From NCBI GenBank assembly GCA_963678705.1, contig OY783203.1, positions 7,750,001 through 7,814,000 of the forward strand: a DNA stretch of 64,000 nt, read 5' to 3'. Origin of the DNA: Panorpa germanica. Lineage: Eukaryota > Arthropoda > Insecta > Mecoptera > Panorpidae. Numbering within the stretch: the first letter of the stretch is position 1; each line of letters starts with the position of its first letter. This document shows positions 18,454-64,000 of this stretch, one piece after another. Under the pieces are notes generated by a model. It searched no databases. It worked only from the letters and a program-made list of their open reading frames with translations, and had not been told where the DNA came from. The position numbers were made by a program, and so were the translations under genes.

Positions 18454-19789
18454 TTAGTCACGGTCTGGAATACGGATGATAGCAGATTCAATTTTGAAGA
18501 CCTTTATCATTTTCTCCCAGGTCTCCTTATCCAAAGTGAACAGGCTCTCGTACCCTTCACATGCGTCATGCTCTGGGGAATCTCTTTCCTCTGCTGGTAT
18601 TGGCTTTACCACAAATTGGTCATTGTCACCGGGCAACATTGTTATAAATCTGTCCTTTACAAGAGATGACACGTGGTGGATATTTTCTACTGTCATCTCG
18701 AAGCTTTGCGGATCACAAACGAGCTTGTAAAATGGTATAGCACCTCTCTTTTTGATAATGTCCAGGACTTGATCCACAGGCTAAAATAAAATATGTAGTC
18801 AAAAATAATAATTAATACTCGAAGAAGAATAAAATTAAAAAGTAAAATTTTCGTATATTCTCTTAATGATGTTTCTAGACATCTAAATATTATCGCATCT
18901 TAAAAAATAAAACATCGGAGAAAGTATTTTCAAACAAACTTAATATTTTACAAATTTAATATTTTACCTTCATGATAGTTGGTTTAGTTTCCTTCGGATC
19001 GGTAATGCTCTCATACTTTCGTCTGCAGCCTTCATTGGTCAATTCTTTGGCAATGCCGTCACTGGATTCACTTGATTCACAATCGCTAGAACTATCAATA
19101 ACGATTACTTTATTGGGATGGATTTCGTCAGTGACATCCTCTTTTCCCATGATATGTAGAGGAGTGTATACAGCGGTCAGATGAAGCGGTTTTGAAGGTG
19201 TTGGACTGCCATGTAAAGTGTCGGCTATAAAGTTATCTTCGTCGCTAAAATAAGTAGGATTTACTTCAGCAACTTCATTTGATTGAGTTTTGGCTATATT
19301 AGATGTGGATGCATCTGAGTCAATTGACTTCTGAGCAGGTGGCCTCGGCATTTGACGCGGGAGATTTCCTGGGAAGTTGGGCGGTTCTATTGGGTTTTCG
19401 CCATTCCATTTAGGTAACACAACCTTTTCAGTGAAGTAATTCACATTTACTTTATCCCAGTTTAATTGATTATTTTCATCACTTCCGAAGATATTTAATA
19501 ACGAATTAGCAAATCCTGGGGCGGAATATCCAATGATTGGCTTTGGATTTGATACATTGGCAATTGACTTGTGTAATGCTATTCCAGTCAGTTTAAGTAT
19601 TTCTAAATCAGCCATCATATCACCAGGCGACCTGATACCATCGAGAAGCCTTTCATCAAACAACTCTTCTGCGGCCGCTATTATACGGTTGGTCTCCATA
19701 ATCCTCTCTGGATCAACGAGGCTCTTTAGGGCTTTGGCTTCTTCCAGTAATTGAATATACCTTTCGTCAGTTGGAATATTTTCATCCAT
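18454..19789 (-). CDS. Nse4: Nse4, Smc5/6 complex kleisin, copy A (382 aa)
   Basis: Nse4 bridges the Smc5 and Smc6 heads in the DNA-repair Smc5/6 complex. The model joins 19789-18968 and 18780-18454 (phase 0). The N-terminal helices match the family pattern: YIQLLEEAKALK, then IIAAAEELFDE, then DLEILKLTG. The C-terminal winged helix has IPFYKLVCDPQSFEMTVENI, close to the family's FF.FV.DP.SF..TVENIF core, then a FTLDKETWEKMIKVF segment. The Asp/Ser-rich linker carries VIVIDSSSDCESS at about residues 228-240, a good SUMO-interaction motif, apt because Smc5/6 contains the SUMO ligase Nse2. An in-frame ATG at 19858 lies inside a 5' UTR intron (TTTCTTTCTTTTTAATTTGTAG acceptor), so translation starts at MDENIP. 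Copy B is a tandem paralogue 2 kb upstream. Confidence 0.85.
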
Positions 19790-19898
19790 ACTTAAATCGT
19801 ATTCGTCAACGAACAAAATTTCACTACAAATTAAAAAGAAAGAAACTATAAGGTTCATTTAGATTAGAATAATGTAATTGTAATATTTTCTAATTTAC

Positions 19899-23719: not shown

Positions 23720-23822
23720 ATTCGAAGATATTAAGCGAAATTTTACTACAAGGAAAAAAATAACTATATTCATTCATTTCGATTATTATAATGTAATTAA
23801 AAATGTAATGTTTCTAATTTAC

Positions 23823-26143: not shown

Positions 26144-28513
26144 ATAATTTAAAATATAATATAATTTCAAAAAGAAAAATTATTGATTTCTTAATATCTT
26201 TTGATGCAGTTATATGCTTTGGGCTTTAAGAAGACGAACTGTCTCAATAAATTTAAAATATCTCAACATTTGTGGATTTTATAAGGGTTTCTAAAAATTC
26301 ATGGACTTTTTTTTCAAAAAAAATAATTATTGATTTCTTAATATCTTTTGATGCAGTTATATCCATTTATGTTTAAGAAGACGAACTGCATTAAAAAATT
26401 TGAAATATCGTAACTATTTTGGATTTTATAAGGGTTTCTAAAAATTCACGGACTTTTTTTTTAAAAAGAAAAATTATTGATTTCTTAATATCTTTTGATG
26501 CAGTTATATGCTTTGGGCTTTAAGAAGACGAACTGCGTCAATAAATTTAAAATATCTCAACATTTGTGGATTTTATAAGGGTTTCTAAAAATTCATGGAC
26601 TTTTTTTTCAAAAAAAATAATTATTGATTTCTTAATATCTGTTAATGCAGTTATATGCTTTGGGCTTTAAGAAGACGAACTGTGTCAATAAATTTAAAAT
26701 ATCTCAACATTTGTGGATTTTATAAGGGTTTCTAAAAATTCATGGACTTTTTTTTCAAAAAAAATAATTATTGATTTCTTAATATCTGTTAATGCAGTTA
26801 TATGCTTTGGGCTTTAAGAAGACGAACTGTGTCAATAAATTTAAAATATCTCAACATTTGTGGATTTTATAAGGGTTTCTAAAAATTCATGGACTTTTTT
26901 TTCAAAAAAAATAAAATATTGATTTCTTAATATCTTTTGATGCAGTTATATGCTTTGGGCTTTAAGAAGACGAACTGTGTTAATAAATTTAAAATATCTC
27001 AACATTTGTGGATTTTATAAGGGTTTCTAAATATTCATGGACTTTTTTTTCAAAAAAAATAATTATCGATTTCTTAATATCTTTTGATGCAGTTATATCC
27101 ATTTATGTTTAAGAAGACGAACTGCATTAAAAAATTTGAAATACCGTAACTATTTTGGATTTTATCAGTGTTTCTAAAAATTCATGGACTTTTTTTTTCA
27201 AATTTTTTTTATCGATTTCTTAATATTTTTGGATGCAGTTATATTCGTTAAGGTTTAAGAAGGCGAACTGTTTTAACGGATTTGAAATATCTACAGTTTT
27301 GTGGATTTTAGAAGGGTTTTATAAAAAATATTTTTACATTTTAAAAATCTTATAAAATCCACAAAAGTTGAGATATTTTAAATTTATTGACACAGTTCGT
27401 TTTCTTAAATCTTAAAGCAAATAACTGTATCAAAAAATATTAAGAAATCATTAATTTTTTTTTTTGAAAAAAAGTCCATGAATTTTTAGAAACCCTTGTA
27501 AAATCTAAAGTATTTAAGATATTTCAAATTTTTTAATGCAGTTCGTCTTCTTAAATATAAATGGATATAACTGCATCAAAAAATATTAAGAAATCAATAA
27601 TTTTTTTTTTGAAAAAAAGTCCATGAATTTTTAGAAACCCTTATAAAATCCATAAATGTTGAGATATAATAAATTTATTGACACAGTTCGTCTTCTTAAA
27701 GCCAAAAGCATATAACTGCATCAACAGATATTAAGAAATCATTATTTTTTTTTTTTTAAAAAAAGTCCATGAATTTTTAGAAACCTTATAAAATCCACAA
27801 ATGTTGAGATATTTTAAATTTATTGACACAGTTCATCTTCTTAAAGCCCAAAGCATATAACTGCATCAAAAGATATTAAGAAATCAATAATTTTTCTTTT
27901 TAAAAAAAAAGTCCGTGAATTTTTAGAAACCCTTATAAAATCCAAAATAGTTACGATATTTCAAATTTTTTAATGCAGTTCGTCTTCTTAAACATAAATG
28001 GATATAACTGCATCAAAAGATATTAAGAAATCAATAATTATTTTTTTGAAAAAAAAAGTCCATAAATTTTTAGAAACCCTTATAAAATCCACAAATGTTG
28101 AGATATTTTAAATTTATTGGCACAGTTCGTCTTCTTAAAGCCCAAAGCATATAACTGCATCAAAAGATATTAAGAAATCAATAATTTTTCTTTTTTAAAA
28201 AAAAGTCCGTGAATTTTTAGAAACCCTTGTAAAATCTAAAGTATTTAAGATATTTCAAATTTTTTAATGCAGTTCGTCTTCTTAAACATAAATTGATATA
28301 ACTGTATCAAAAAATATTAGGAAATCAATAATTTTTATTTTTGAAAAGAAAGTCCATGAATTTTTAGAATCCCTTATAAAATCCAAAATAGTTACGATAT
28401 TTCAAATTTTTTAATGCAGTTCGTCTTCTTAAACTCAAATGGATATAACTGCATCAAAAAATATAAAGAAATCAATAATTTTTCTTTTTGAAATTATATT
28501 ATATTATAAATTA

Positions 28514-28584
28514 TAACGTCTGATCAATATGCAACCATATATACTTTTATTTGTGTATATATAGTTGCACGTAGATCAGGCGTT
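28514..28584. repeat. 70-bp palindromic insert in the satellite (right arm, copy 1)
   Basis: Reverse-complement copy of the insert at 26074-26143, again at a 249-base unit spacing. The flanking ATTATATTATAAATTATAA segment is shared with the other copies. Confidence 0.8.
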
Positions 28585-29057
28585 GGAAATCAGGAAAAAA
28601 GTCCATGAACTTTTAGAACCCCTTATAAAATCTAAAGTATTTAAAATATTTCAAATTTTTTAATGCAGTTCGCCTTCTTAAACATAAATGAGTATAACTG
28701 CATCAAAAAATATTAAGAAATCAATAATTTTTCTTTTTGAAAAAAAAGTCCATGAATTTTTAGAATCTCTTATAAAATCCAAAATAGTTACGATATTTCA
28801 AATTTTTTAGCACAGTTCGTCTTCTCAATTACAAATGAATATAACTGCATCAAAAAATATTAAGTAATCAATAATTTTTCTTTTTGAAAAAAAAGTCCAT
28901 GAATTTTTAGAATCACTTATAAAATCCAAAATAGTTACGATATTTCAAATTTTTTAATGCAGTTCGTCTTCTTAAACTTAAATGGATATAACTGCATCAA
29001 AAAATATTAAGAAATCAATAATTTTTCTTTTTGAAATTATATTATATTATAAATTAT

Positions 29058-29127
29058 AACGTCTGATCAATATGCAACCATATATACTTTTATTTGTGTA
29101 TATATAGTTGCACGTAGATCAGGCGTT
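29058..29127. repeat. 70-bp palindromic insert in the satellite (right arm, copy 2)
   Basis: Nearly identical to 28514-28584, including flanks. It probably spread with a multi-unit satellite block of about 544 bases and not by independent insertion. Confidence 0.8.
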
Positions 29128-29529
29128 GAAAATCAGGAAAAAAAGTCCATGAATTTTTAGAACCCCTTATAAAATCTAAAGTATTTAAGATAGTTCAAAT
29201 TTTTTAATGCAGTTCGTCTTCTTAAACATAAATGGATATAACTGCATCAAAAAATATTAAGAAATCAATAATTTTTCTTTTTCAAAAAAAAGTCTATGAA
29301 TTTTTAGAATCTCTTGTAAAATCCAAAATAATTACGATATTTCAAATTTTTTTGCACAGTTCGTCTTCCCAATTACAAATGAATATAATTGCATCAAAAA
29401 ATATTAAGAAATCAATAATTTTTCTTTTTGAAAAAAAAGTCCATGAATTTTTAGAATCCCTTATAAAATCCAAAATAGTTACGATATTTCAATTTTTTTA
29501 ATGCAGTTCGTTTTCTTAAACTTCCACAT

Positions 29530-46854: not shown

Positions 46855-49115
46855 ATGATGCGCCACTGGTATGTTTAAAACCTATATGCTTTCTATCTCA
46901 AAATGTTTAACCTTCAAAAACTTTTCATTTGGCAAATGAACGCACTTTATTGCTTATCGTACTATCTATAATACGAATATACCTCCACACTGCTTCGCAC
47001 AGGTGTTATGACAGAGGCATGACATTTTTGTGGTTTGACATTCTCTACAGTCGGAGAGTATGGTATTTAGATCGTTTGGAGAATGTATTTAGCTGCTGCT
47101 GCTATCTTGGCTATAATTTTTGTAAAGTGTTCGTTTGGTTTTCCCCGATGCATTGAAGAATTCATAAAATATTATTATCAACTATTCGGAAAAATAGAAT
47201 CGTAATATATTACGATTAAATAATTAGGTACAAATGAATTTTATAAAATACAAAAAATAATAATAAATGATTTGATATATAAAAATAATAATTAAATCCT
47301 TTTATTTATGTTATGTAAAAACTATATCATATTATTCAGTATTATTTTCATTCCAGTTTATTTATAATAATTCTTCGAGGTCTTAATTTTGGATACTAAG
47401 ACTTACCTAGCACACACTGCGTATAAATTCATCTCAGTTTCTATGCAGTACTTTACTTCGCCAAAAAATTGTTGTATTTATATATCTTGGTAATCTTGTC
47501 CAAAGAGATACGCCGACAACAGCATATGAGTGTCTTCATTCAACTATATGTTCTACAAAAAAAAATAACGAAAACAAATCTCTGTGCCACAGTGAATTTT
47601 GTAGAAATCTATAGATTTGTTTTTGCGTAGAATTAAAACCTTTGGTGTGTTCATGTTCAATTTACTATGTCTCTTTGCAATATGTAGATAAAAGATGAAA
47701 TATCTCCTTTGTAGTTTTAAACTTGTCATGAACGAATTAGTTAAAAAGAATTTCTTACTAGATAGACCCGGGCATGGTTCGTTGTAGATTACTCTGATAT
47801 GAAATGAATGGGAAAATAAATAAAAGACACACATGCAAACACAGACGAAAACGCAGACGACGATTAACTGAAAAGAAACGAAAGACGCGCGTGTTCGAAT
47901 GCAACGTTGTGTCAAAATTTCAAGACAATCGACCGACTACTTGTAGAGTTTTGCGAGCTCAAACATATGTATACCGAATTTTTATATATAAAGTTAAACA
48001 TCGGAGATGGCAGTACACAAATAGAGAGCCTCGACTAAGTAATGTTATGACTTTATAAATGCTTAAAAAGTTTCCTTTATAATTACAAGAACCCACATGT
48101 GAATAAGTCCTTTTATGATTTTAATAGCAATAAAATAGGCCACGTGTTAATAAAATGTGCCTTTTGCACCGATTACCTGTAAAAAAATACCCCGCTGTCA
48201 AGCTAGCAAGTAGTTATACGTTCTTAACTACATACCATACTATTTATTCTCGAAATATCAGATTTGTTAAAACGGCGTAGGTCTGGGGCTCTGGGATCTT
48301 AATCTAACAGTAGCGATCAACGGTAACAACCTGATCATTACCATGATTACTAATTTACAACCTGACTGTGACATGAGCCGTAAGCCATGAGCCTGTTTCG
48401 TTTTCTTCTGACGTATAAACACACCTCCAGAGCGTGCCGCCTACGCCGCAGGTTTGAATAAATAAAGTTATATTTAAAAAACTAGAGCTAAACTATTGAA
48501 TAAATATGTACAAGTAAATGCTTATAGAATGTGAAAAAAGAACTCGATGACCTTGCAGTAGTGCAATTACACAATTTCAAATTTATAATCCTGCTCACAA
48601 GTAACTAAGAATTAATTTGTATTACTTGAAATTGGTAGTTATATTGTAAGAAACAACAACTAAAATAATTATCCTGATAGCCGATAGATCTTCAATGAGC
48701 TTGTGCCTTTTGAAATCATTTTTTGAATATTTGAGGATCTGATAGCCAACTTTATCAATATACATATAGTACAGTTTTATATAAATCAAAACCATTAAAT
48801 ATTTATTGCTTTACTTTTTTACAAAATCAAGATCTTAATGAATATTACAATTAGAAATATTTTTATCACACAATAATTATGTCTGTAATTTCAAATTCCT
48901 TAAAAAAATCTGCCAATTAATACTTTCAATTAATTTTAGAGCAAGTGCATCTCATGACAAAGTTTGAAGGGGAAAGTAAAGAAGGGCGCGCCATTACGTT
49001 GCATTCCGTTCAATATGAATGTGTGCCCGACATCTGATAGCACTAAAATTAGATCGAAGGTCAATATTAGCGAATTGAGAATTCAGAGGTCCCCGTCGTA
49101 AGAGTCCGAAAGTAA
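46855..49115. other. intergenic DNA upstream of the cuticle gene
   Basis: No coding exon is seen. The opposite-strand frames at 47553-47915 and 47804-48058 overlap over low-complexity ACACA/AAACG-rich DNA. A fragment of R2 lies at about 48700-48800. The 1 kb nearest the gene has no recognisable hormone-response element. Confidence 0.45.
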
Positions 49116-49122
49116 CAGTTTG

Positions 49123-49157
49123 TGTATATATAGTGAAACCCAATTCTAAATCATTAC
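49123..49157 (+). promoter_or_regulatory. TATA box and initiator of the cuticular protein gene
   Basis: TGTATATATAGT at 49123-49134 is followed about 28 bases downstream by an initiator-like ATCATTAC (49150-49157). This predicts a 5' leader of about 75 bases. TATA promoters are typical of strongly expressed cuticle genes. Confidence 0.65.
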
Positions 49158-49226
49158 AATTCACTAACAGCTCACAGCAAGCGAGTACTGGAACTCCAGC
49201 AGCGCTAAAACAGAACAAATACCACC

Positions 49227-50144
49227 ATGAAGTTATTCGTAGTTCTCTCCGTCCTCGTCGCTGGTGCTGTCGCGTACCCCGGATACCTGGGATACGGACA
49301 CGGACATGGTGTTCCCCAACAAGTTGCCGACACCCATGAGGTAGCTGCCGCCAAGGCACAACACTTCGCAGCTGTTGCCGCCGCACAAGCACACTCTGGT
49401 GCCGGTGCAGGACACTACGCCGTCGCTGGACATGAAGACGATGGCCAATACCGTGGTGAAGGTGCCCATTACGATGGACATTATGCTGGACACTACGATG
49501 ATGGTCAATACCGTGGAGAAGGCAGCCACTACGCCGGACAATACGCTCATGGAGCAGTTGCCGTTCTTGCTCCAGGACAAGACACCCATGAAGTAGCCGC
49601 CGCTAAAGCACAACACTTTGCCGCCGTCGCCGAAGCCAAAGGCCAACAATCCGCCCTAGGACACTATGGTGGTCACGATGATGGGCACTACGCTGGACAA
49701 TACGACGATGGTCAATACCGTGGAGAAGGCGCTCAGTATGCTGGACAATACGCTGGACATTATGCTCATGGAGCCGTTGCCGTTCTTGCCCCAGGACAAG
49801 ATACCCATGAAGTAGCTGCCGCTAAAGCTCAACACTTTGCCGCTGTCGCTGCCGCACAATCTGCTGCCGGTGCAGGACACTACGCCGTCGTAGGACATGA
49901 AGATGATGGTCAATACCGTGGAGAAGGTGCCCATTACGATGGACATTATGCTGGACAATACTCCGGACATGAAGACGATGGTCAATACCGTGGAGAAGGT
50001 GCTCACTACGCCGGACACTACGCTCATGGACCCGTTGTCGTTCTTGCTCCAGGACAAGACACCCACGAAGTTGCTGTAGCTAGAGCACAACACCTCGCTG
50101 CCCACGCCGCTGCTCTTCATGGAGCAGTAGGACACCATTATTAG
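49227..50144 (+). CDS. repeat-rich cuticular protein (305 aa, secreted)
   Basis: A structural protein predicted to be secreted into the cuticle. A signal peptide (MKLFVVLSVLVAGAVA, cleavage before about residue 17) precedes two interleaved repeats. DTHEVAAAKAQHFAAVA starts at about 35, 119, 192 and 278, the last degenerate (EVAVARAQHLAAHA). DDGQYRGEG starts at about 71, 91, 160, 236 and 250. Tyr/His/Gly-rich AGHY/AGQY spacers lie between. The alanine-rich motif resembles the DTPEVAAA(K/R)AAH motif of insect pupal/adult cuticle proteins (Cuticle_3-like), with Thr-His in place of Thr-Pro. There is no chitin-binding R&R consensus. The coding region is one exon and much more GC-rich than its surroundings, with an ACCACCATGA start context. 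Tyr and His could be used in sclerotisation, which is inference. The tandem DNA repeats also give long spurious frames on the other strand. Confidence 0.9.
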   Translation: MKLFVVLSVLVAGAVAYPGYLGYGHGHGVPQQVADTHEVAAAKAQHFAAVAAAQAHSGAGAGHYAVAGHEDDGQYRGEGAHYDGHYAGHYDDGQYRGEGSHYAGQYAHGAVAVLAPGQDTHEVAAAKAQHFAAVAEAKGQQSALGHYGGHDDGHYAGQYDDGQYRGEGAQYAGQYAGHYAHGAVAVLAPGQDTHEVAAAKAQHFAAVAAAQSAAGAGHYAVVGHEDDGQYRGEGAHYDGHYAGQYSGHEDDGQYRGEGAHYAGHYAHGPVVVLAPGQDTHEVAVARAQHLAAHAAALHGAVGHHY

Positions 50145-50192
50145 ATTTGAAATTTGCTTTTCCCTGATTTTCTCTAGTGTACATATAGAATT

Positions 50193-50198
50193 AATAAA
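50193..50198 (+). terminator. poly(A) signal of the cuticular protein gene
   Basis: AATAAA 49 bases after the TAG stop at 50142-50144, the first hexamer downstream. Confidence 0.75.
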
Positions 50199-50199
50199 A

Positions 50200-50634
50200 T
50201 AACATCTTTGAATATAAACATCTGTTTTCTTTAATGTTCTTCGTCCATAAATTTCAACAGAAATAAAAATAAATATGGTATTCATTAGAAAAATATTAAA
50301 GAATTATCATTGACTTATAACTAATTGACTCTTTTTATTTTTACATCCTACGCTAATATTTATAATATTGTTAATAACTATCGTAGAATTATATCAAATT
50401 TATTTATATTTCTATGTATAGTTTCATTCATTTACGAATTTTCTACTCGTTCGTAAATTTGAATATGAGAGTATCAAGCCAAAGTAAATGTCCATTTTAT
50501 AATATGTAAAATTATAATTTGTTTTATATATCTATAATTAGATGTTATTCTTATATGGTAATCAATGCTGTTGATTTTTTATTTCTTTTAAATTAAAAAT
50601 ATTTTATTTACTATATTTAGAACAAAAATACTCA
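50200..50634. other. AT-rich spacer, no gene seen
   Basis: Nothing recognisable between the cuticle gene and the start of the tandem segmental duplication. Confidence 0.5.
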
Positions 50635-53463
50635 GTAATGAACTTTAGTTTCGATTTCTGAAGTACATTGTTAAATAAACACCGTTATAATAAGTAATTA
50701 CAAAAAGTGTTTGATAATATTATTGTAAATTAAAGTATATTTTTAGTATAAAAGAAAAGTTTAGCTAAAACTTAAATAAGTTAATGATATTGAGATCTAA
50801 AATGACTGTATAATGTTCTCCTAATTATTACTTTGTAATATACAAATAAATATCATGAATGTTTGAACTAGAATAATGATTGAAATTAAAATTTAATTAT
50901 GTATATGTTTATTAACTTCTATATTAATAAAATAAAATTTACATAAAAAATAAATGTTTTATAAGATCCTTATTTTATCGTTTATATATAAATTCAATTT
51001 ATTAAGTTAAGAAAATTGTTTTTTATTATACCTGTAACAATATTTGCTTATATAAAATTTGAAGATTTTGTTGCAACTAAAAATGGAAGTTTAGACTCTA
51101 TTCATTCATTTTAATAAATATGAAATATTTTCTTATCAGAATTTACTTTGAATATATTGATATCCACTCTCTAAATTTAGTGTCACAATTTGGATTCAGT
51201 AAAATATTCTTTATTGTATTATTATTTCTACTTGTTACATAGATTGTAATCTGAAATCTATCTGGCTGATTGTGGCTCCACAGCTGTAATTAATATAAGA
51301 GATTTCAATTATTAAACAATGATTTATCAAATATATTATGTATATGTCATACCTTTGCATAATTCACGTGCAAACCAATGTATCTGTTTAAAATCTCGCA
51401 TCAACCAAATTACGTGGTTTAGAAGAAGAATTATGTCTAAAAGTAAGATAAAATACAATCATAAACTTTTTCGAATAAAATAAATACAGTTAAGACTAAG
51501 AGTTTATAGTTAATTAAATATAAGAAATTAACCCTTTTTATATTTCAAATATTTTTAAAATGGGCGCCACGTTTCTAACAATGTCATCCATATTGAATTT
51601 AAAATTTGAACTCGCAGAGTAAGCATTATTGAATTTTGAAATATATTTTGTGTAAACAAAAGGGATTGCTAAATTGTAAAAAGTGGTTGTGTTTATAATT
51701 AACAGTTTAAAGTTTTATTTAAGATATTAATTAAGTAGTAAAACGTATTTTTTATGATAATAAATGTGTATAAATGACAACGTACAATGACAGCAACAGG
51801 TGAGAATAAACTATCTTTTCTACATAATAATACAACCAAAATATTATTGCAAGCCCAAAAATGTAATCCTAGACATAAATAAATAGTTAATGAGCTATTT
51901 TGAGCATATACTTAAAATATGCTATTATGAACTATAACCTCAGATCTGGAACTGAAAATGTTAGTCTCCGCCATTTTAGTTTTTATATTTCAAATCGTTA
52001 GCTGCCCCATTTTATAATTCGTCTGCCATTTGAAAGTTGGGTGTCTCCTACGCAAGTTTCTTAGAATTTCAAATATATTATTGTGTTAGAAAATGTGCTT
52101 TTTAAAACGTAAAATGTAGTTGAATTTATAAATAAGAATCTAAAGATTTATTTAAGATATTAATATTTCATAAACCGTGTTTCTTATAAACAATAAATGT
52201 GTGTGAATGACAATCTACTATCTCATGCAACAGGTATGCTAATGTTTTCCTTTTTACATAATAATTCATCATGCATCACAACAAAACATAATCAAAACAT
52301 TCTTGTAAGCCCAGAAATGTAATTGTAGATATAAATTAATAAGTAATAATCCATTTTGACCTATTATGAATTATAACCTCACAGCTGAAAACCGTTGACC
52401 TGATTCAGTTTAAATTTATAATTAACGCTGTGACACGTACAATAGCTTAGTTTTCTTTTAAAATCGAAAAGCAAAACAATTGTAAACGTAATAGGAATCT
52501 AAAGTTTTATTTTAAAAATGTACTTATACTCCAAACATTTTTCGGGACAATAAATTATGTATATGACAAATGATGTTCGGCATTTGAATTTGCGCAATAA
52601 AAAAATAACATTGAATAGTAAAGCTGCAGTTTACAATAGAAAAGTATAACAAATAAATCTTTGATGTACCTGTTATAAAATAATAAGATCCGTTTTTAAA
52701 GAAAATTTAGACCTATCTAGATTACAATCTATCTTTACTAGGTTTTAATTAAATACATGACTTACTTTTGCTTCTGTGAATGAATGAAATTTAAGTGGTG
52801 TAATTTATGAGCTTCTTAGTAAAATATATTGTCCAGTTTTTAATTTGCTGTCGATTTCAAAAGATAGTTTCACAGCATCTCCTCGTTGAGTAATTGCCTA
52901 AAAACATAATTAATATTAAAATAATAAATAAGTATTATATTTTTCACGCTATTGAATTTATTTATTTACTTGCTTAGGGATTATAGTACCACATTTTCCA
53001 TTACATTTCAATACAGTCTACTGCGCTAATAAATAATACCTGCGGTGGCTAAATCCAACCCTAAAATATAAAGTAGAATATATCTTACTTAGCAATTAGT
53101 TTTCTTCACTCCATATATACCGAAAGACTACTATTATATCAGTCATTGATCAGAGTTAATTAAACTATCTATAAATATTCATGCATTTAACAAACCTTTT
53201 TCACTTCACTTTTTTATAAGGATACATATGTATCCTTATATCTTGATCATATGATCAGCAATAGATAAATTATGTTCACAGTATAACTAATCAAAGAATC
53301 CCGACATTACTAACTAGGTGAACCGCAAAACCCATGTCCACTGAGACGAGTCAGAAACCTCTGAAAGATCATAAACATTAAAACATCTCAACTTCCATAA
53401 ACAAAATTATGAATAAAATCACTTGTATCATCGATTTCATATTTAACTAATTCGCTTCATATG
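50635..53463. repeat. tandem segmental duplication, unit 1 (about 2.83 kb)
   Basis: Begins GTAATGAACTTTAGTTTCG, a phrase that recurs at 53464, where the second unit starts directly. It ends with TAATTCGCTTCATATG. Compared with unit 2 it has about 95 extra bases near 50790-50880 and 75 near 53165-53240. It lacks about 29 bases (GTGTTGTACATGAAACAAAC...) found at about 53808. Otherwise only scattered substitutions separate the units. Three diverged subrepeats lie inside (51630-51957, 52066-52395, 52440-52600). Confidence 0.93.
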
Positions 53464-56116
53464 GTAATGAACTTTAGTTTCGATTTCTGAAGTACATTGT
53501 TAAATAAACACCGTTATAATAAGTAATTACAAAAAGTGTTTGATAATATTATTGTAAATTAAAGTATATTTTTAGTATAAAAGAAAAGTTCAGCTAAAAC
53601 TTAAATAAGTTAATGATGAAATTAAAATTTAATTATGTATATGTTTATTAACTTCTATATTAATAAAATAAATGTTTTATAAGATCCTTATTTTATCGTT
53701 TATATATAAATTCAATTTATTAAGTTAAGAAAATTGTTTTTTATTATACCTGTAACAATATTTGCTTATATAAAATTTGAAGATTTTGTTGCAACTAAAA
53801 ATGGAAGTGTTGTACATGAAACAAACCAAATTTATTTAGACTCGATTCATTCATTTTAATAAATATGAAATATTTTCTTATCAGAATTTACTTTGAATAT
53901 ATTGATATCCACTCTCTGAATTTAGTGTCACAATTTGGATTCAGTAAAATATTCTTTATTGTATTATTATTTCTACTTGTTTCATAGATTGTAATCTGAA
54001 ATCTATCTGGCTGATTGTGGCTCCACAGCTGTAATTAATATAAGAGATTTCAATTATTAAACAATGATTTATCAAATATATTATGTATATGTCATACCTT
54101 TGCATAATTCACGTGCAAACCAATGTATCTGTTTAAAATCTCGCATCAACCAAATTACGTGGTTTAGAAGAAGAATTATGTCTAAAAGTAAGATAAAATA
54201 CAATCATAAACTTTTTCGAATAAAATAAATACAGTTAAGACTAAGAGTTTATAGTTAATTAAATATAAGAAATTAACCCTTTTTATATTTCAAATATTTT
54301 TAAAATGGGCGCCACGTTTCTAACAATGTCATCCATATTGAATTTAAAATTTGAACTCGCAGAGTAAGCATTATTGAATTTTGAAATATATTTTGTGTTA
54401 ACAAAAGGGATTTCTAAATTGTAAAAAGTGGTTGTGTTTATAATTAACAGTTTAAAGTTTTATTTAAGATATTAATTAAGTAGTAAAACGTATTTTTTAT
54501 GATAATAAATGTGTATAAATGACAACGTACAATGACAGCAACAGGTGAGAATAAACTATCTTTTCTACATAAAAATCCAACCAAAATATTATTGTAAGCC
54601 CAAAAATGTAATCCTAGACATAAATAAATAGTTAATGAGCTATTTTGAGCATATACATAAAATATGCTATTATGAACTATAACCTCAGATCTGGAACTGA
54701 AAATGTTAGTGTCCGCCATTTTAGTTTTTATATTTCAAATCGTTAGCTGCCCCATTTTATAATTCGTCTGCCATTTAAAAGTTGGGTGTGTCCTACGCAA
54801 GTTTCTTAGAATTTCAAATATATTATTGTGTTAGAAAATGTGCTTTTTAAAACGTAAAATGTAGTTGAATTTATAAATAAGAATCTAAAGATTTATTTAA
54901 GATATTAATATTTCATAAACCGTGTTTCTTATAAACAATAAATGTGTGTGAATGACAATCTACTATCTCATGCAACAGGTATGCTAATGTTTTCCTTTTT
55001 ACATAATAATTCATCATGCATCACAACAAAACATAATCAAAACATTCTTGTAAGCCCAGAAATGTAATTGTAGATATAAATTAATAAGTAATAATCCATT
55101 TTGACCTATTATGAATTATAACCTCACAGCTGAAAACCGTTAACCTGATTCAGTTTAAATTTATAATTAACGCTGTGACACGTACAATAGCTTAGTTTTC
55201 TTTTAAAATCGAAAAGCAAAACAATTGTAAACGTAATAGGAAGCTAGTTTTATTTTAAAAATGTACTTATACTCAAAACATTTTTCGGGACAATAAATTA
55301 TGTACATATATGACAAATGATGTTCGACATTTGAATTTGCGCAATAAAAAAATAACATTGAATAGTAAAGCTGCAGTTTACAATAGAAAAGTATAACAAA
55401 TAAATCTTTGATGTACCTGTTATAAAATAATAAGATCCGTTTTTAAAGAAAATTTAGACCTATCTAGATTACTATCTATCTTTACTAGGTTTTAATTAAA
55501 TACATGACTTACTTTTGCTTCTGTGAATGAATGAAATTTAAGTGGTGTAATTTATGAGCTTCTTAGTAAAATATATTGTCCAGTTTTTAATTTGCTGTCG
55601 ATTTCAAAAGATAGTTTCACAGCATCTCCTCGTTGAGTAATTGCCTAAAAACATAATTAATATTAAAATAATAAATAAGTATTATATTTTTCACGCTATT
55701 GAATTTATTTATTTACTTGCTTAGGGATTATAGTACCACATTTTCCATTACATTTCAATACAGTCTACTGCGCTAATAAATAATACCTGCGGTGGCTAAA
55801 TCCAACCCTAAAATATAAAGTAGAATATATCTTACTTAGCAATTAGTTTTCTTCACTCCATATATACCGAAAGACTACTATTATATCAGATCAGCTGATC
55901 ATATGATCAGCAATAGATAAATTATGTTCACAGTATAACTAATCAAAGAATCCCGACATTACTAACTAGGTGAACCGCCAAACCCATGTACACTCAGACG
56001 AGTCAGAAACCTCTGAAAGATCATAAACATTAAAACATCTCAACTTCCATAAACAAAATTATGAATAAAATCACTTGTATCATCGATTTCATATTTAACT
56101 AATTCGCTTCATATGG
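53464..56116. repeat. tandem segmental duplication, unit 2 (about 2.65 kb)
   Basis: Second copy of the segment at 50635-53463, in direct orientation and abutting it. The junction occurs at CATATG|GTAATGAAC. The exon-like pieces noted for unit 1 are conserved base for base here, which reflects recent duplication and not selection. Confidence 0.93.
55551..55644 (-). other. possible terminal coding exon (duplicated at about 52795-52890)
   Basis: On the minus strand a TATGTTTTTAG acceptor is followed by a 30-codon frame, AITQRGDAVKLSFEI...LLRSS, then TAA. It looks protein-like in composition. I could not connect it in frame to upstream pieces: a 21-base mini-exon at about 55788-55808 has good splice sites but gives a stop. 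It is a weak candidate and the family is not recognised. Confidence 0.25.
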
Positions 56117-56200
56117 TGAATAGCTAATTTAGTACATTAACAGTATAAAAAAAATCTCAATGAAATATGTAGGTCTTTTTAATATCAAAAATAATCTTAC

Positions 56201-56445
56201 CTGTCTTTGATACGTTGCGCAATTTAGTTCGTTTTGTTTATAGATATAAACCTTTGCAAAATTAATCGCAATTGATGAGGTTTTTGATGTCAGTTAATAG
56301 GCAATATTTAATTAAATTATTTGAAATAAAAATATATATTCTGCAGTCTGAACTCTTAAGTATTAGGTTGACTATTTACATTTTTATTATAACCATGTTT
56401 ACCTGTTGCTATATGATTATATTTTTAAAGCGCATGCGCAAAAGT
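56201..56445 (-). promoter_or_regulatory. candidate promoter and noncoding first exon (NRF-1/Ewg-like site)
   Basis: GCGCATGCGC at 56430-56439 is a perfect NRF-1/Ewg-type palindrome in otherwise AT-rich DNA. About 230 bases away on the minus strand is a strong donor, AAGACAG|GTAAGAT (exon end 56201), which would pair with acceptors in the duplicated segment. The motif is symmetric, so it could equally serve a plus-strand transcript entering the exon array from 57.2 kb. No start codon was found in this exon. Confidence 0.35.
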
Positions 56446-57166
56446 ATTTCAGTTACGATTTATTTCTCTAGGCCTAACACGCCCTGCGAAGAAATATCAC
56501 TCAGAAAAAAATTCGCAATATTTCTATTGTTCATATGATTAAATATGTTACAGGATTTGTGATTTTCTCGCCGTTTTTTTATGCAGTCGGGATAGGCCTC
56601 AGATTTTTTATTTTTATGTGTTCTTTTATCCAATGATCGGTCTTTGGGCAAGGATACAAATATCTTTCATCCCTTTTGTTCGATGTACTACATTGTACAC
56701 ACACACACAGAGGACACATACACCGTTCTATTCAACTTACGTGTATGCATTAGCTAAACAATCATGCGATTCATATTTAGAAACATCGTATTATATGTAA
56801 CTTTTTAAATTAGCATAGTCTGACCTTGATTTTAAATTTTTGAAGTATTTTACTTAGGAAAAATGTAATAATATTTAATTTAAAAAAGTATAAGTAAGAG
56901 AGGTATTTAGATTTTGTTGTACTTAAAAAGGTCTACTTAAAAAGTTTTATGATTATGTTAATGGTCAAAAGATAATATTAAAAAAAGATATATAATAGCT
57001 ATAAACCTTAAGTCGATGAAATGCGTTTACTGTGATATATTATAAAAATAAATAACAGTCAAAATAAATAAAAGTAAATATACCATTTAATTTTTTATTA
57101 TTGCGATTTATAATTGAATTTATATTCGTTAATATTTTAATTTTATGAAACTTTTTATTTATAACA
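56446..57166. other. AT-rich spacer before the exon array
   Basis: No coding leader exon was found for the array downstream. A (CA)n stretch lies at 56698-56709. The open frames at 56272-56538 and 56618-56800 look like chance. Confidence 0.4.
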
Positions 57167-57167
57167 G

Positions 57168-57279
57168 ATTTTTCTATCAGGGTTTTGGTCCATTGCTACA
57201 GCTGTAAACGAATTTCCGGACACTTGGATCGGACTACCTACTTATGAGGAGTTATATTGATTTACTTTTTTTAAATAAA
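57168..57279 (+). other. E1 cassette: terminal-exon-like unit (copies at 58487, 60808, 62362)
   Basis: After TTTATAACAG, frame 1 is open for 30 codons (GFWSIATAVNEFPDTWIGLP...) to TGA at 57258-57260, and AATAAA follows at 57274-57279. All four E1 copies keep this frame despite amino-acid changes (N/K, T/S, P/L). That is the layout of a 3'-terminal coding exon in phase 0. No upstream partner with a start codon is identified. The protein is not recognised. Confidence 0.45.
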
Positions 57280-57367
57280 TGTAAATGTAATTTTATTATT
57301 GCTATTTATAAAGGTTAATTTATATTTGATAATATTTTAATTTCAATATGGTTTTTCTTTATTACAG

Positions 57368-57557
57368 ATTTTTTTTATTAGGGTTCTGCTGCATTGCTGC
57401 TGTAACGAATTTCCGAATTTTTGGAGCAGCCTGGATTCTGATTATTTGTGTAGTACAGTGTTTAGTGATAGTGCAGTGTGAATTATTTAAATCAGGAAGG
57501 ATTAATGCAGTTCCTGACCTCGCAGAAGACATCGTGCACTAGGACGTAATTATAGAG
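57368..57557 (+). other. E2 cassette: diverged relative of E1 fused to an internal-exon tail
   Basis: Frame 1 after TTATTACAG reads CCCNEFPNFWSSL..., alignable with E1's NEFPDTWIGLP, so E1 and E2 share an ancestor. E2b and E2c (58687, 59453) keep the E1-like end (SSLPAYGDAF, SSLLAHGESF) before a stop, but E2a diverges. E2a continues past its stop to an AGAG|GTAACC donor at 57557. The 64-codon frame from ATG 57348 starts in the intron and uses another frame. It is present again at 60988. Confidence 0.4.
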
Positions 57558-57793
57558 GTAACCATCAAATTAACAAATTCTTTCTTTTCCTTTTCCATTT
57601 CAATAGACTTGTAAAATATCTTAACGAATTATCTTTTGTTCCAGACTTAAAATGAACAATTAAATTGGACATGTGCAAGTGTCGCGTTGCATAGACTTTG
57701 TGTAGTACAGTGTTTAGTGCAAGTGCAGTGTGAATTATTTAAATCAGGAAGGATTAATGCAGTTCCTGACTTCGCAGAAGACACCGGAAACGT

Positions 57794-58154
57794 ATGGAGG
57801 CATCCGGCTTTAGGAAAATTAAAAAAAGGTAATATTCTAAATTAAAATCATATATCGAGTATAGAAATTTAATCTATTTTAATATAAGTAAACTTATTGT
57901 AATCTTAACGATTTCTTTCTCTTGTTTTAGGCTCACATCAGGTTCCACAACTGTAACAATGAGTCCTAAGTAAGTGGAACTTATTTCTAAGCATGGCCCC
58001 ACCGCACTAACTTTAAAAATTACTTTACAGGGTCTTGACAATGTTTATTATGGAAATCATTATTAATCTTAAGAGATATTGGAGTCTGTTTCAGATAAGT
58101 CCCGTAGATTCAAGGCTTCTTCAAGATGGATTTCTGTTTGATGTTGCCGCCTAA
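57794..58154 (+). CDS. candidate 65-aa protein spliced from E3-E4-E5 (unrecognised)
   Basis: Joining 57794-57828, 57931-57969 and 58031-58154 gives 198 bases with an unbroken frame. It runs from ATG (MEASGFRKIKK) through TVTMSPKVL and INLKRYWSLFQISP to LQDGFLFDVAA and TAA. Junctions use AAAAAAAG|GTAATA, TTGTTTTAG|G, CCTAA|GTAAGT and CTTTACAG|G. The same join is intact at 61669-62029. At 60088 onward, E5 carries a net one-base difference before the second ATG that breaks the frame. A basic N-terminus and a hydrophobic middle are visible, but no known domain. A noncoding transcript is at least as likely. Confidence 0.3.
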
Positions 58155-60087
58155 GATTTTAAAAGATAATTGGGAGTATCCTAGGTGATTAAAGAAGGAT
58201 TGAGATTAAAATAAAGGTAATAATACGTTGTAGTTTTTCATCTAATTATTGATTAGTTTTAATTTCATGTTTTCTGTAAATGTAATGCTCTTTCTTTCTT
58301 TCTATCTTACAGATTGAAGAAAAATAGCCGGACTCTTGGATCAGCCTACCTACTTATGAGTAGTTACTTGGATTTCCTTCTTTTAAATAAAAGTAAATAT
58401 ACCATTTAATTTTTTATTATTGTGAATAATAATTGAATTTATATTCGTTAATATTTTAATTTTATGAAACTTTTTATTTATAACAGATTTTTCTATCAGG
58501 GTTTTGGTCCATTGCTACAGCTGTAAAAGAATTTCCGGACTCTTGGATCGGACTACCTACTTATGAGGAGTTATATTGATTTACTTTTTTTAAATAAATG
58601 TAAATGTAATTTTATTATTGCTATTTATAAAATTTAATTTATATTTGATAATATTTTAATTTCAATATGGTTTTTCTTTATTACAGATTTTTTTTATTAG
58701 GGTTCTGCTGCATTGCTGTTGTAACGAATTTCCGAATATTTGGAGCAGCCTACCTGCCTATGGGGATGCATTCTGATTATTTGTGTAGTACAGTGTTTAG
58801 TGAAAGTGCAGTGTGAATTATTTAAATCAGGAAGGATTAATGCAGTTCCTGACCTCGCAGAAGACATCGTGCACTAGGACGTAATTAGAGAGGTAGCCAT
58901 CTGATTAACAAATTCTTTCTTTTCCATTTCAATAGACTTGTAAATGATTTTAACGAATTATCTTTTGTTGCAGACTTAAAACCAACAATTAAATTTGGAC
59001 ACGTGCAATCGTCGCGTTTGCACAGACTTTGTGTAGTGCTCAAGGTTCCTCCAAGATGGATTTCTTTTTGATGTTGCTGTTTAATATTTAAAAAGACTGA
59101 GGAAGGAATGAGATTAAAATAAAGGTATGAATTTGTTGTACTATTTCATCTGATCACTGACAGTTTTATTTGTTCTTTGATTAAATTGGTTAAACTATAA
59201 TTTCCACATATTGATTTTAGTTTTAATTTCATGTTTTCTATAAATATAATGCTCTTTATTTCTTACAGATTTTTTTTAGGGGTTACTGGAGTGTTTACTC
59301 TATTGAAGAACAATAGCCGGACCTACTTATGAGGAGTTATTTTCATTTCTTTTTTTTAAATAAATGTAAATTTAATTTTATTATTGCTATTTATAAAGGT
59401 TAATTTATATTTGATAATATTTGAATTTCAATATGGTTTTTCTTTATTACAGATTTTTTTTATCAGGGTTCAGTTGCATTGCTGTTGTAACGAATTTCGG
59501 AACTTTTGGAGCAGCCTACTTGCCCATGGGGAGTCATTTTGATTTTCTTTTTCAAAATAAATGTAAATATTAATTATCATATTTTGTGATTGAGTTTTTT
59601 TTTTGTTATTATTATAATTTTAAAATGATTTTCCTTCTTACAGATTTTTTTCAGGATCCTGCTGCATTGCTGTTGTAACGAATTTCCTAACTTTTGAAGC
59701 AACCTACCTGCCTATGGGGGGGAATTCTGATGCTTTCTGTAGTGCAGTGCAGTGATTAGTGAAAATGTATTGTGAATTATTTAAATCAGGAAGGATTAAT
59801 GCAGTTCCTGACTTCGCAGAAGACATCGTGCGCTAGGACGTAATTAGAGAGGTAATCATCTAATTAACAAATTCTTTCTTTTCCTTTTCCATTTCAATAG
59901 ACTTGTAAAATATCTTAACGAATTATCTTTTGTTCCAGACTTAAAATGAACAATTAAATTGGACATGTGCAAGTGTCACGTTGCATAGACTTTGTGTAGT
60001 GCAGTGTTTAGTGCAAGTGCAGTGTGAATTATTTAAATCAGGAAGGATTAATGCAGTTCCTGACTTCGCAGAAGAAACCGGAAACGT

Positions 60088-60448
60088 ATGGAGGCATCCG
60101 GCTTTAGGAAAATTAAAAAAAGGTAATATTCTAAATTAAAATCATATATCGAGTATAGAAATTTAATCTATTTTAATATAAGTAAACTTATTGTAATCTT
60201 AACGATTTCTTTCTCTTGTTTTAGGCTCACATCAGGTTCCACAACTGTAACAATGAGTCCTAAGTAAGTGGAACTTATTTCTAAGCATGGCCCCGCCACA
60301 CTAAATGAAAAATTACTTTGCAGAGTCAGAGTCAATGTTTATTATGGAAATGATTATTAATCTTAAGAGATGTTGGAGTCTGTTTCAGATAAGTGCCGGA
60401 GATTCAAGGCTTCTTCAAGATGGATTTCTGTTTGATGTTGCCGCCTAA
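60088..60448 (+). pseudogene. frame-broken copy of the E3-E4-E5 cassette
   Basis: E3 (ATG 60088, exon end 60122) and E4 (60225-60263) match the intact copies. E5 starts AGTCAGAGTCAATG where the others have GGTCTTGACAATG, one base more. The joined frame therefore ends early. Alternative nearby AG acceptors do not restore it. Confidence 0.4.
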
Positions 60449-60807
60449 GATTTTAAAAGATAATTGGGAGTGCCCTAGGTGACTAAAGAAGGATTGAGAT
60501 TAAAATAAAGGTAATAATACGTTGTACTTTTTCATCTAATTATTGATTAGTTTTAATTTCATGTTTTCTGTAAATGTAATGCTCTTTCTTTCTTTCTTAC
60601 AGATTTTTTAGGGGTTACTAGACAGTTTGCTCCGTTGAAGAAAAATAGCCGGACTCTTGGATCAGCCTACCTACTTATGAGTAGTTACTTGGATTTCCTT
60701 CTTTTAAATAAAAGTAAATATACCATTTAATTTTTTATTATTGTGAATAATAATTGAATTTATATTCGTTAATATTTTAATTTTATGAAACTTTTTATTT
60801 ATAACAG

Positions 60808-63800
60808 ATTTTTCTATCAGGGTTTTGGTCCATTGCTACAGCTGTAAACGAATTCCCGGACTCTTGGATCGGACTACTTACTTATGAGGAGTTATATTGA
60901 TTTACTTTTTTTAAATAAATGTAAATGTAATTTTATTATTGCTATTTATAAAGGTTAATTTATATTTGATAATATTTTAATTTCAATATGGTTTTTCTTT
61001 ATTACAGATTTTTTTTATTAGGGTTCTGCTGCATTGCTGTTGTAACGAATTTCCGAATTTTTGGAGCAGCCTGGATTCTGATTATTTGTGTAGTACAGTG
61101 TTTAGTGATAGTGCAGTGTGAATTATTTAAATCAGGAAGGATTAATGCAGTTCCTGACCTCGCAGAAGACATCGTGTACTAGGACGTAATTATAGAGGTA
61201 ACCATCTAATTAACAAATTCTTTCTTTTCCTTTTCCATTTCAATGGACTTGTAAAATATCTTAACGAATTATCTTTTGTTCCAGACTTAAAATGAACAAT
61301 TAATTTGAACATGTGCAAGTGTCGCGGTTGCATAGACTTTATGTAGTGCAGTGTGAATTATTTAAATCAGGAAGGATTAATGCAGTTCCTGACTTCGCAG
61401 AAGACATCGTGCGCTAGGACGTAATTAGAGAGGTAATCATCTAATTAACAAATTCTTTCTTTTCCTTTTCCATTTCAATAGACTTGTAAAATATCTTAAC
61501 GAATTATCTTTTATTCCAGACTTAAAATGAACAATTAAATTGGACATGTGCAAGTGTCGCGTTGCATAGACTTTGTGTAGTGCAGTGTTTAGTGCAAGTG
61601 CAGTGTGAATTATTTAAATCAGGAAGGATTAATGCAGTTCCTGACTTCGCAGAAGACACCGGAAACGTATGGAGGCATCCGGCTTTAGGAAAATTAAAAA
61701 AAGGTAATATTCTAAATTAAAATCATATATCGAGTATAGAAATTTAATCTATTTTAATATAAGTAAACTTATTGTAATCTTAACGATTTCTTTCTCTTGT
61801 TTTAGGCTCACATCAGGTTCCACAACTGTAACAATGAGTCCTAAGTAAGTGGAACTTATTTCTAAGCATGGCCCCACCGCACTAACTTTAAAAATTACTT
61901 TACAGGGTCTTGACAATGTTTATTATGGAAATCATTATTAATCTTAAGAGATATTGGAGTCTGTTTCAGATAAGTCCCGTAGATTCAAGGCTTCTTCAAG
62001 ATGGATTTCTGTTTGATGTTGCCGCCTAAGATTTTAAAAGATAATTGGGAGTATCCTAGGTGATTAAAGAAGGATTGAGATTAAAATAAAGGTAATAATA
62101 CGTTGTAGTTTTTCATCTAATTATTGATTAGTTTTAATTTCATGTTTTCTGTAAATGTAATGCTCTTTCTTTCTTTCTATCTTACAGATTGAAGAAAAAT
62201 AGCCGGACTCTTGGATCAGCCTACCTACTTATGAGTAGTTACTTGGATTTCCTTCTTTTAAATAAAAGTAAATATACCATTTAATTTTTTATTATTGCGA
62301 TTTATAATTGAATTTATATTCGTTAATATTTTAATTTTATGAAACTTTTTATTTATAACAGATTTTTCTATCAGGGTTTTGGTCCATTGCTACAGCTGTA
62401 AAAGAATTTCCGGACTCTTGGATCGGACTACCTACTTATGAGGAGTTATATTGATTTACTTTTTTTAAATAAATGTAAATGTAATTTTATTATTGCTATT
62501 TATAAAATTTAATTTATATTTGATAATATTTTAATTTCAATATGGTTTTTCTTTATTACAGATTTTTTTTATTAGGGTTCTGCTGCATTGCTGTTGTAAC
62601 GAATTTCCGAATATTTGGAGCAGCCTACCTGCCTATGGGGATGCATTCTGATTATTTGTGTAGTACAGTGTTTAGTGAAAGTGCAGTGTGAATTATTTAA
62701 ATCAGGAAGGATTAATGCAGTTCCTGACCTCGCAGAAGACATCGTGCACTAGGACGTAATTAGAGAGGTAGCCATCTGATTAACAAATTCTTTCTTTTCC
62801 ATTTCAATAGACTTGTAAATGATTTTAACGAATTATCTTTTGTTGCAGACTTAAAACCAACAATTAAATTTGGACACGTGCAATCGTCGCGTTTGCACAG
62901 ACTTTGTGTAGTGCTCAAGGTTCCTCCAAGATGGATTTCTTTTTGATGTTGCTGTTTAATATTTAAAAAGACTGAGGAAGGAATGAGATTAAAATAAAGG
63001 TATGAATTTGTTGTACTATTTCATCTGATCACTGACAGTTTTATTTGTTCTTTGATTAAATTGGTTAAACTATAATTTCCACATATTGATTTTAGTTTTA
63101 ATTTCATGTTTTCTATAAATATAATGCTCTTTATTTCTTACAGATTTTTTTTAGGGGTTACTGGAGTGTTTACTCTATTGAAGAACAATAGCCGGACCTA
63201 CTTATGAGGAGTTATTTTCATTTCTTTTTTTTAAATAAATGTAAATTTAATTTTATTATTGCTATTTATAAAGGTTAATTTATATTTGATAATATTTGAA
63301 TTTCAATATGGTTTTTCTTTATTACAGATTTTTTTTATCAGGGTTCAGTTGCATTGCTGTTGTAACGAATTTCGGAACTTTTGGAGCAGCCTACTTGCCT
63401 ATGGGGAGTCATTTTGATTTTCTTTTTCAAAATAAATGTAAATATTAATTATCATATTTTGTGATTGAGTTTTTTTTTTGTTATTATTATAATTTTAAAA
63501 TGATTTTCCTTCTTACAGATTTTTTTCAGGATCCTGCTGCATTGCTGTTGTAACGAATTTCCTAACTTTTGAAGCAACCTACCTGCCTATGGGGGGGAAT
63601 TCTGATGCTTTCTGTAGTGCAGTGCAGTGATTAGTGAAAATGTATTGTGAATTATTTAAATCAGGAAGGATTAATGCAGTTCCTGACTTCGCAGAAGACA
63701 TCGTGCGCTAGGACGTAATTAGAGAGGTAATCATCTAATTAACAAATTCTTTCTTTTCCTTTTCCATTTCAATAGACTTGTAAAATATCTTAACGAATTA

Positions 63801-64000
63801 TCTTTTGTTCCAGACTTAAAATGAACAATTAAATTGGACATGTGCAAGTGTCACGTTGCATAGACTTTGTGTAGTGCAGTGTTTAGTGCAAGTGCAGTGT
63901 GAATTATTTAAATCAGGAAGGATTAATGCAGTTCCTGACTTCGCAGAAGACACCGGAAACGTATGGAGGCATCCGGCTTTAGGAAAATTAAAAAAAGGTA
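60808..64000 (+). repeat. higher-order repeat unit 2 (runs off the window)
   Basis: Repeats unit 1 with E1 60808, E2a 61008, an extra 235-bp E3/E2-like block at 61284-61519, E3 61520, E4 61806, E5 61906, E6 62188, E1 62362, E2b about 62562, the hybrid about 62849, E6 about 63144, E2c about 63328, E2d about 63519 and E3 about 63814. After the extra block the offset to unit 1 becomes about 3875. Identity to unit 1 is very high by eye, so the duplication is recent. Confidence 0.9.
61669..62029 (+). CDS. second intact copy of the E3-E4-E5 65-aa frame
   Basis: Exons 61669-61703, 61806-61844 and 61906-62029 reproduce the 57794-58154 model without a change I could find. Because the surrounding introns are equally conserved, this shows recent duplication and does not by itself show selection on protein. 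Confidence 0.3.

Follow-up and report, generated by a model that had tools for sequence, protein, structure and literature searches.

What is the long run of exon-like cassettes that closes a 64,000-nucleotide stretch of the X chromosome of the scorpionfly Panorpa germanica: a set of protein-coding exons, a mobile element, a source of small RNAs, or a gene whose product is itself RNA? In this study, the window, by which we mean that whole stretch (X:7750001-7814000 of assembly GCA_963678705.1), was analysed together with the rest of the genome, searched as 464,208,970 bases in 249 contigs, while an excerpt of PMC11464959 gives 464,228,243 bp in 254 scaffolds for the deposit and, in its Table 2, names the 47.99-Mb molecule as X (scaffold length 47,989,005 bp). 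We observed that splice sites are conserved across diverged copies of the array, as expected of a spliced RNA gene family, and that the exons are without protein-level constraint. Among the options raised in a preliminary description of this DNA, a spliced noncoding RNA therefore fits best, and the array probably, though far from certainly, belongs to a family of RNA polymerase II genes that is lineage-specific and yields spliced noncoding RNAs.

Between window positions 57167 and 63997, landmark mapping found acceptors and donors alternating strictly, 30 of each, which gives 30 complete exon-like cassettes (Table 1), and the array extends beyond the window end to a final landmark at about X:7,823,889 (flanking locus L009); the landmark patterns are family-specific and were composed after inspection of the sequence, and alternation alone is no statistical test. 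The cassettes comprise E1 (with AATAAA at the donor), E2 (E1-like start, E3-like end), E3, E4 (39 nt), E6 and E3/E6 hybrid types, and repeat analysis of the window revealed a higher-order period of 3,875 bp built from alternating 2,321-bp and 1,554-bp blocks. The preliminary description had counted at least 26 ordered cassettes, each behind an acceptor; order and acceptors stand, and the count becomes 30. It had placed donors on internal types, where they are indeed found; E1, E2 and E6 types bear them too. The common origin that it proposed for E1 and E2 holds as nucleotide homology, whereas the shared NEFP..W peptide is a by-product, the three frames evolving alike. Its hybrid cassette was recovered twice and is mapped as E3/E6, the 5' portion of the first copy deriving from E3 (59003-59040) and its 3' portion from E6 (59039-59137), and landmark mapping also confirmed the multiplied terminal exons, with several E1-type ends per array.

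The evidence that carries our reading comes from comparison between copies. From 123 profile matches, the 45 near full length (profile start at or below 97, end at or above 530) were thinned at 95% identity to 30 representatives, in which 147 of 148 splice dinucleotides are retained (first donor 30/30, first acceptor 30/30, second donor 30/30, second acceptor 29/30, third donor 28/28). Because of this conservation chance is excluded, and the splice signals proposed earlier can be taken as genuine. In the same copies, 48 other consensus GT/AG dinucleotides show a mean retention of 0.798; 17 of them also reach 0.96, since the splice sites sit among conserved blocks, and random sets of five match the observed mean in 126 of 100,000 draws. 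The 24 dispersed rows alone keep 117 of 118 splice dinucleotides. As the length filter favours copies reaching the third donor, the count was repeated without it on 61 core matches in the fetched loci, where the first acceptor was kept in 60 of 60 readable cases, the second donor in 60/60 and the second acceptor in 57/59. A 30-base signature spanning the end of E4 and its donor, searched with up to three mismatches, was found at 92 genomic sites (reversed-pattern control, 0), with the donor GT unaltered at every one. Ahead of dispersed E3, the acceptor is present in 14/14 aligned segments, and similarity decays upstream of it, in five loci only about 200 bp further out. Mean pairwise identity is highest in E4 (0.92) and in the 61-nt intron after it (0.887) and falls to its minimum, 0.723, midway through intron 1, as measured on 25 of the 30 representatives with segment borders lying 1-3 bases off the final exon borders.

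The same copies speak against a protein product. In array copies a 65-residue frame is open across E3-E4-E6, while among dispersed copies the longest ATG frames vary, from 22 residues upward. For the E6 frame opened by the ATG at 58041, pN/pS is 1.01 when all of the E6 stretch is taken and 1.3 when only the initial 66 nt are, against 0.54 and 1.07 in the other two frames (26 of the 30 representatives). Most distinct indels among copies are not multiples of three (E3, 18/19; E4, 1/1, of one base; E6, 21/36), and the three E1/E2 frames, analysed in 35 of 106 hairpin-profile matches, are alike in pN/pS (0.73, 0.74 and 0.78) and in stops (18, 18 and 20). Pfam gave no match for the predicted peptides, and no homologue was present among the predicted proteins searched. 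An origin from DCAF1 was considered and rejected: phmmer with the 65-residue frame matched nothing but DCAF1/VPRBP chains, none of them better than E 0.55, and diverged copies lose the likeness.

Two small hairpins, H1 in E3 and H2 in E4, were recognized in the copies. H1 has a 7-bp stem and additionally an outer pair, which is unformed in 19/37 sequences; 91.6% of the cells are paired, and its covariation score was reached in a single shuffle out of 500 and in none of the slid versions. These values come from 37 of 64 distinct hairpin matches (of 106), hand-picked, an alignment that favours pairing by omitting near-identical array copies and truncated hairpins (e.g. L021:4754, L027:6593, L020:5843, L019:4987 and L025:6060). 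The outer six pairs of H2 are formed in all 25 sequences (of the 30 representatives), with eight one-sided G-U changes. Folds of intron 2 and E6 yielded no doubly compensated pair. Since the conserved parts are the splice signals and two small stems, a structured noncoding RNA is indicated. Rfam gave no match at gathering score in the window, and in three dispersed loci the best score was 12.6 bits against a cut-off of 50, which is chance level.

With respect to exon ends, 17 dispersed E1-like matches are at least 80 nt long, and AATAAA adjoins the 3' end of 11; the other six represent two other E1-like exons of the chromosome-end subfamily described below (L044-L046), with matches that end at 86-94 nt. 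Dispersed E6 ends bearing a donor show AATAAA in 14/22 and the donor in 22/22, so that E6, which had been listed with E1 among the terminal types, is better read as internal. Because the AATAAA of both E1 and E6 directly adjoins the donor, the transcript may either be spliced onward or terminate there.

The family extends well beyond this locus. The stretch 57168-58328 has at least 126 matches in the genome, and three further dense arrays lie at X:41.32-41.34 Mb (spacing period about 4,660 bp), chr1:26.29-26.30 Mb and chr1:29.55-29.56 Mb; outside them, copies are dispersed in groups of 1-3 units at 73-84% identity. Merging the 92 signature sites at 25 kb yields 47 loci, which occupy 17 of the 21 chromosomes; 26 loci are single-site and 21 multi-site, with strand uniform within all 21 of the latter. 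The preliminary description had held that a known unit dispersed genome-wide would speak against it: the unit is indeed dispersed, but no known family was identified in Rfam or Pfam, and being dispersed does not by itself mark it as a decayed repeat, because its dispersed copies retain splice sites. The X holds 24/92 sites because two arrays sit there; by locus, no X enrichment was seen (4/47 signature loci; 5.0 expected among 46 loci of a BLAST-based list that overlaps the signature list and is not identical to it). Loci seem to lie nearer chromosome ends than a uniform distribution would place them (Kolmogorov-Smirnov p 0.0009 for 46 loci, and 0.03 for 37 without a young subfamily), a test made on hand-entered positions of loci that are not independent. 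This young subfamily, at 93-96% identity, occupies nine loci, eight within 1 Mb of a chromosome end; one match of it reaches the last base of the chr12 scaffold (G000:C12:16625739-16625943). Viral contigs gave no exact match to the family.

Upstream of the cassettes, two related units ending GCAACAG/GT (the slash marks the exon end) each occur twice (donors after 51799, 52233, 54544 and 54978), an arrangement seen in 0 of 100 shuffles. Homologous units were found at X:41.34M, chr1:26.29M, chr1:29.54M (three) and chr19:0.602M, so that with those of the window such units stand upstream of four arrays and of a fifth on chromosome 19. The chr19 units have diverged independently (71-76%), and two E3-E4-E6-E1 units lie 11-13 kb downstream of them on the same strand, so first-exon-like units and cassettes are linked at a diverged locus as well. 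Counterparts of window 50157-57057 accompany both the X:41.3M array and the one at chr1:26.3M (about 89-98%), and chr1:29.55M shares patches of it. The shared block reaches back to 47224 at chr1:26.287-26.294 Mb (47224-57057, about 89-97%) and to 48337 at X:41.34-41.35 Mb (97-98%), taking in a cuticle-protein-like gene (49209-50144), another copy of which lies inverted at L016:3559-4497. A different cassette, of 142 bp with a TATA-like motif and a donor (TATAAATAAACC ... ACAG/GTATGCG), occurs at 14 places in the chromosome-end subfamily, its flanks being unrelated in the two positions compared. Read by eye, the upstream units and this cassette are candidate TATA promoters and first exons. On the minus strand, short exon-like stretches (52672-53415 and 55419-56270) are common with chr1:29.55M at 78-90%; Pfam gave nothing above cut-off for them, and 56270-56187 reads AINFAKVYIYKQNELNCATYQRQ ahead of a CAG/GTAAGA donor. 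They may belong to a gene or to a further set of noncoding exons.

Taken as a spliced noncoding gene, the basic member would be compact, with an upstream first exon, E3, E4 and E6 as internal exons and an E1-type last exon ending in AATAAA. The block E1-E2-E3-E4-E6 would then have been tandemly multiplied at X 7.8 and 41.3 Mb and at chromosome 1 26.3 and 29.55 Mb, so that a single array transcript could hold many hairpin-bearing modules, variable in length and module number through splicing, and could stop at any of several E1-type ends. A donor abutting AATAAA would let each E1 be spliced onward or serve as the end. Transcription itself, the role of the upstream units as first exons and the competition between splicing and polyadenylation at E1 are what we infer from the sequence. 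The RNA would most likely act as a modular structured long noncoding RNA (lncRNA), and the simplest guess is that its repeated hairpins bind protein.

Several observations weigh against this interpretation. The tree of 51 unit copies is star-like with long terminal branches, which is what an old transposition burst would give; copies of one locus group together in 4 of 14 multi-copy loci. The pattern is equally in keeping with units that spread long ago and have since survived independently under constraint, the arrays of the X and of chromosome 1 having exchanged sequence recently. The double change in H1 concerns a single pair in five sequences, all of the chromosome-end subfamily, and is thin support; H2 shows no double change among its 25 sequences, and therefore the shuffle control gives it no support. 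The first-exon units were not found in the fetched dispersed loci, where a four-unit profile gave, outside array loci, weak partial matches at E 0.1-0.35. Eight other loci, each more than 0.4 Mb from any signature site, also hold short matches to the units, and in seven of these eight the CAACAG/GT donor is missing (judged by eye). Moreover, the E6 frame opened at 58041 has only 4 stops in 876 codons (46/852 and 80/855 in the other frames), and 59 of 63 tblastn matches are stop-free, as expected under a coding reading.

Among the alternatives, a mobile-element family is unlikely. In that case the unit would make up the body of a non-autonomous element with introns, dispersed by an old burst and later tandemly amplified, with some copies perhaps domesticated. 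The dispersal over 17 chromosomes, the star-like tree and the young subfamily near chromosome ends all suit such a history, as does a copy on chr6 (L045, 0.411-0.4145 Mb) that forms an insert of about 3.3 kb between 80-bp direct repeats, 98.75% identical. These repeats (L045:561-640 and 3960-4039) are an unusually long duplication for a transposon. Against it stand the splice sites, since neutral decay, at the mean rate of the other GT/AG dinucleotides, should break about one fifth of them and 1 of 118 is changed in the dispersed rows. Besides, no open reading frame of at least 90 residues occurs in the fetched array loci L013, L014 and L015, older copies are without a common insertion boundary, and the chromosome-end spread could equally be segmental exchange, chr4:25.34M and chr4:9.22M sharing at least 4.3 kb at 96%.

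A precursor of PIWI-interacting or small interfering RNAs, whose array transcripts would be cut and would silence dispersed relatives or another target, we regard as quite unlikely. Tandem arrays with relatives elsewhere do recall the mouse Y-linked Pirmy as described in an excerpt of PMC8428117, but strict splice sites at dispersed copies are not obviously needed for that role. Furthermore, no inverted pair of at least 40 nt (14-nt seed) occurs in 56900-64000, so that at this setting there is no hairpin-RNA (hpRNA) locus. Still more doubtful, indeed very unlikely, is that the cassettes are alternative untranslated exons of neighbouring coding genes. The X:7.8 array has a candidate, an LRR-Ig receptor gene about 2.4 kb downstream, whose coding exon at X:7,826,305 (L010:2305-4056) shares the strand of the array, but no neighbour recurs: chr1:26.3M has the inverted cuticle-protein copy downstream, and other loci have unrelated genes or none seen by eye. 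Lineage-specific short proteins, whether read across E3-E4-E6 or from E1 and despite the 65-residue and stop-poor frames, are largely refuted and highly improbable, since pN/pS near 1 in the open E6 frame and the frame-breaking indels leave the short-protein family of the preliminary description unsupported, as do the uniform E1/E2 frames and the differing longest ATG frames of dispersed copies.

The spliced noncoding family can also be set beside known systems. The Pirmy RNAs are said to have many splice variants. Together with Pirmy-like RNAs, these multicopy noncoding sex-chromosome transcripts of the mouse Y, with related sequences elsewhere, are the nearest published likeness that we met (excerpt of PMC8428117). 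The likeness is by description, and unlike a mammalian Y system, the Panorpa arrays lie on the X and autosomes, consist of tandem cassette exons and conserve splice sites at dispersed loci. Like satellites and higher-order repeats, they show higher-order periods and homogenised copies; unlike the Panorpa family, no satellite known to us retains paired splice sites in diverged dispersed copies. Intron-containing non-autonomous transposons resemble the family in its dispersal, star-like tree and one insert between direct repeats, and differ from it in that older Panorpa copies have no shared boundary, constrained splice sites and no coding remnant that we found. In lncRNAs of the roX and Xist type, small hairpin modules are repeated within a noncoding RNA. 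The Panorpa family is comparable by description in its repeated hairpin modules, but unlike the roX type it is not X-enriched by locus. For Panorpa cognata, an excerpt of PMC10715201 reports that a Y is absent and that somatic tissue shows dosage compensation, and an X-linked lncRNA array would therefore be of interest.

Table 1. Cassettes, hairpins and candidate upstream units, in window coordinates
Feature	Position	Strand	Basis
Candidate promoter and first exon, unit a; donor after 51799 (GCAACAG/GTGAGA)	51600..51930	+	homologous units
Candidate promoter and first exon, unit b; donor after 52233 (GCAACAG/GTATGC)	52030..52380	+	sequence reading
Candidate unit a, second copy; donor after 54544	54345..54675	+	sequence reading
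Candidate unit b, second copy; donor after 54978	54775..55125	+	sequence reading
E1, AATAAA at end	57168..57280	+	landmark mapping
E2 composite: E1-like 5' part, E3-like 3' part with hairpin	57368..57557	+	landmark mapping
E3	57645..57828	+	landmark mapping, copy alignment
Hairpin H1 in E3; stem 57744-57750 with 57763-57769	57744..57769	+	alignment of copies
Hairpin H2 in E4; 57930-57935 and 57960-57965 form the outer stem; the intron ends at 57930	57930..57965	+	alignment
E4, most conserved part	57931..57969	+	landmark mapping, copy alignment
Intron E4-E6, 61 nt, conservation close to E4	57970..58030	+	copy alignment
E6	58031..58216	+	landmark mapping, copy alignment
E1-type	58313..58392	+	landmark mapping
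E1-type	58487..58599	+	landmark mapping
E2 composite	58687..58892	+	landmark mapping
Hybrid, E3 5' part fused to E6 3' part	58974..59124	+	profile matches, landmark mapping
E1-type	59269..59365	+	landmark mapping
E1-type	59453..59562	+	landmark mapping
E2 composite	59644..59851	+	landmark mapping
E3	59939..60122	+	landmark mapping
E4	60225..60263	+	landmark mapping
E6	60324..60510	+	landmark mapping
E1-type	60603..60713	+	landmark mapping
E1-type	60808..60920	+	landmark mapping
E2 composite	61008..61197	+	landmark mapping
Extra E3-like, with E2-type donor	61285..61432	+	landmark mapping
E3	61520..61703	+	landmark mapping
E4	61806..61844	+	landmark mapping
E6	61906..62091	+	landmark mapping
E1-type	62188..62267	+	landmark mapping
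E1-type	62362..62474	+	landmark mapping
E2 composite	62562..62767	+	landmark mapping
Hybrid E3/E6, second copy	62849..62999	+	profile matches, landmark mapping
E1-type	63144..63240	+	landmark mapping
E1-type	63328..63437	+	landmark mapping
E2 composite	63519..63726	+	landmark mapping
E3; array goes on from X:7,814,001 (L009)	63814..63997	+	landmark mapping

Elsewhere in the window, a 147-bp tandem satellite forms several blocks in 26165-29521, of which 26165-27327 and 27349-28493 have reverse-complement consensus units and are palindromic around 27.34 kb (by eye). On the minus strand, 9105-11330 holds exons of a Cep192/Spd-2-like centrosomal protein (Pfam Cep192_D5, 1.2e-14, in 9105-9815), and 18959-19858 and 22565-23773 encode neighbouring related proteins (33% identity over 150 residues, E 2e-22), neither of which matches Pfam at E 0.01. 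The segment 45729-46347 is a repeat, about 620 bp long and probably a transposon; at least 37 copies, 91-94% identical, are spread over many chromosomes.

The few wordings that we tried found no paper combining 'scorpionfly' and 'long noncoding RNA'. It is a speculative and rather unlikely extension of our reading that these loci make up a new RNA family of about fifty trans-dispersed, compact spliced lncRNA genes. In the arrays on the X, on chromosome 1 and at chromosome ends, tandem amplification of modules, among them the hairpin-bearing E3 and E4, would have produced transcripts with many modules, their length set by exons at which the RNA is either spliced onward or terminated, and such a system could have its action on chromosomes or within the germ line. 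If transcribed, the loci would represent a rare large lncRNA gene family in which splicing constraint can be measured inside one genome and without other species, because diverged paralogues act as replicates, and this would open the questions of what the family does, how it spread to chromosome ends and whether its function changes with the number of modules in an array.

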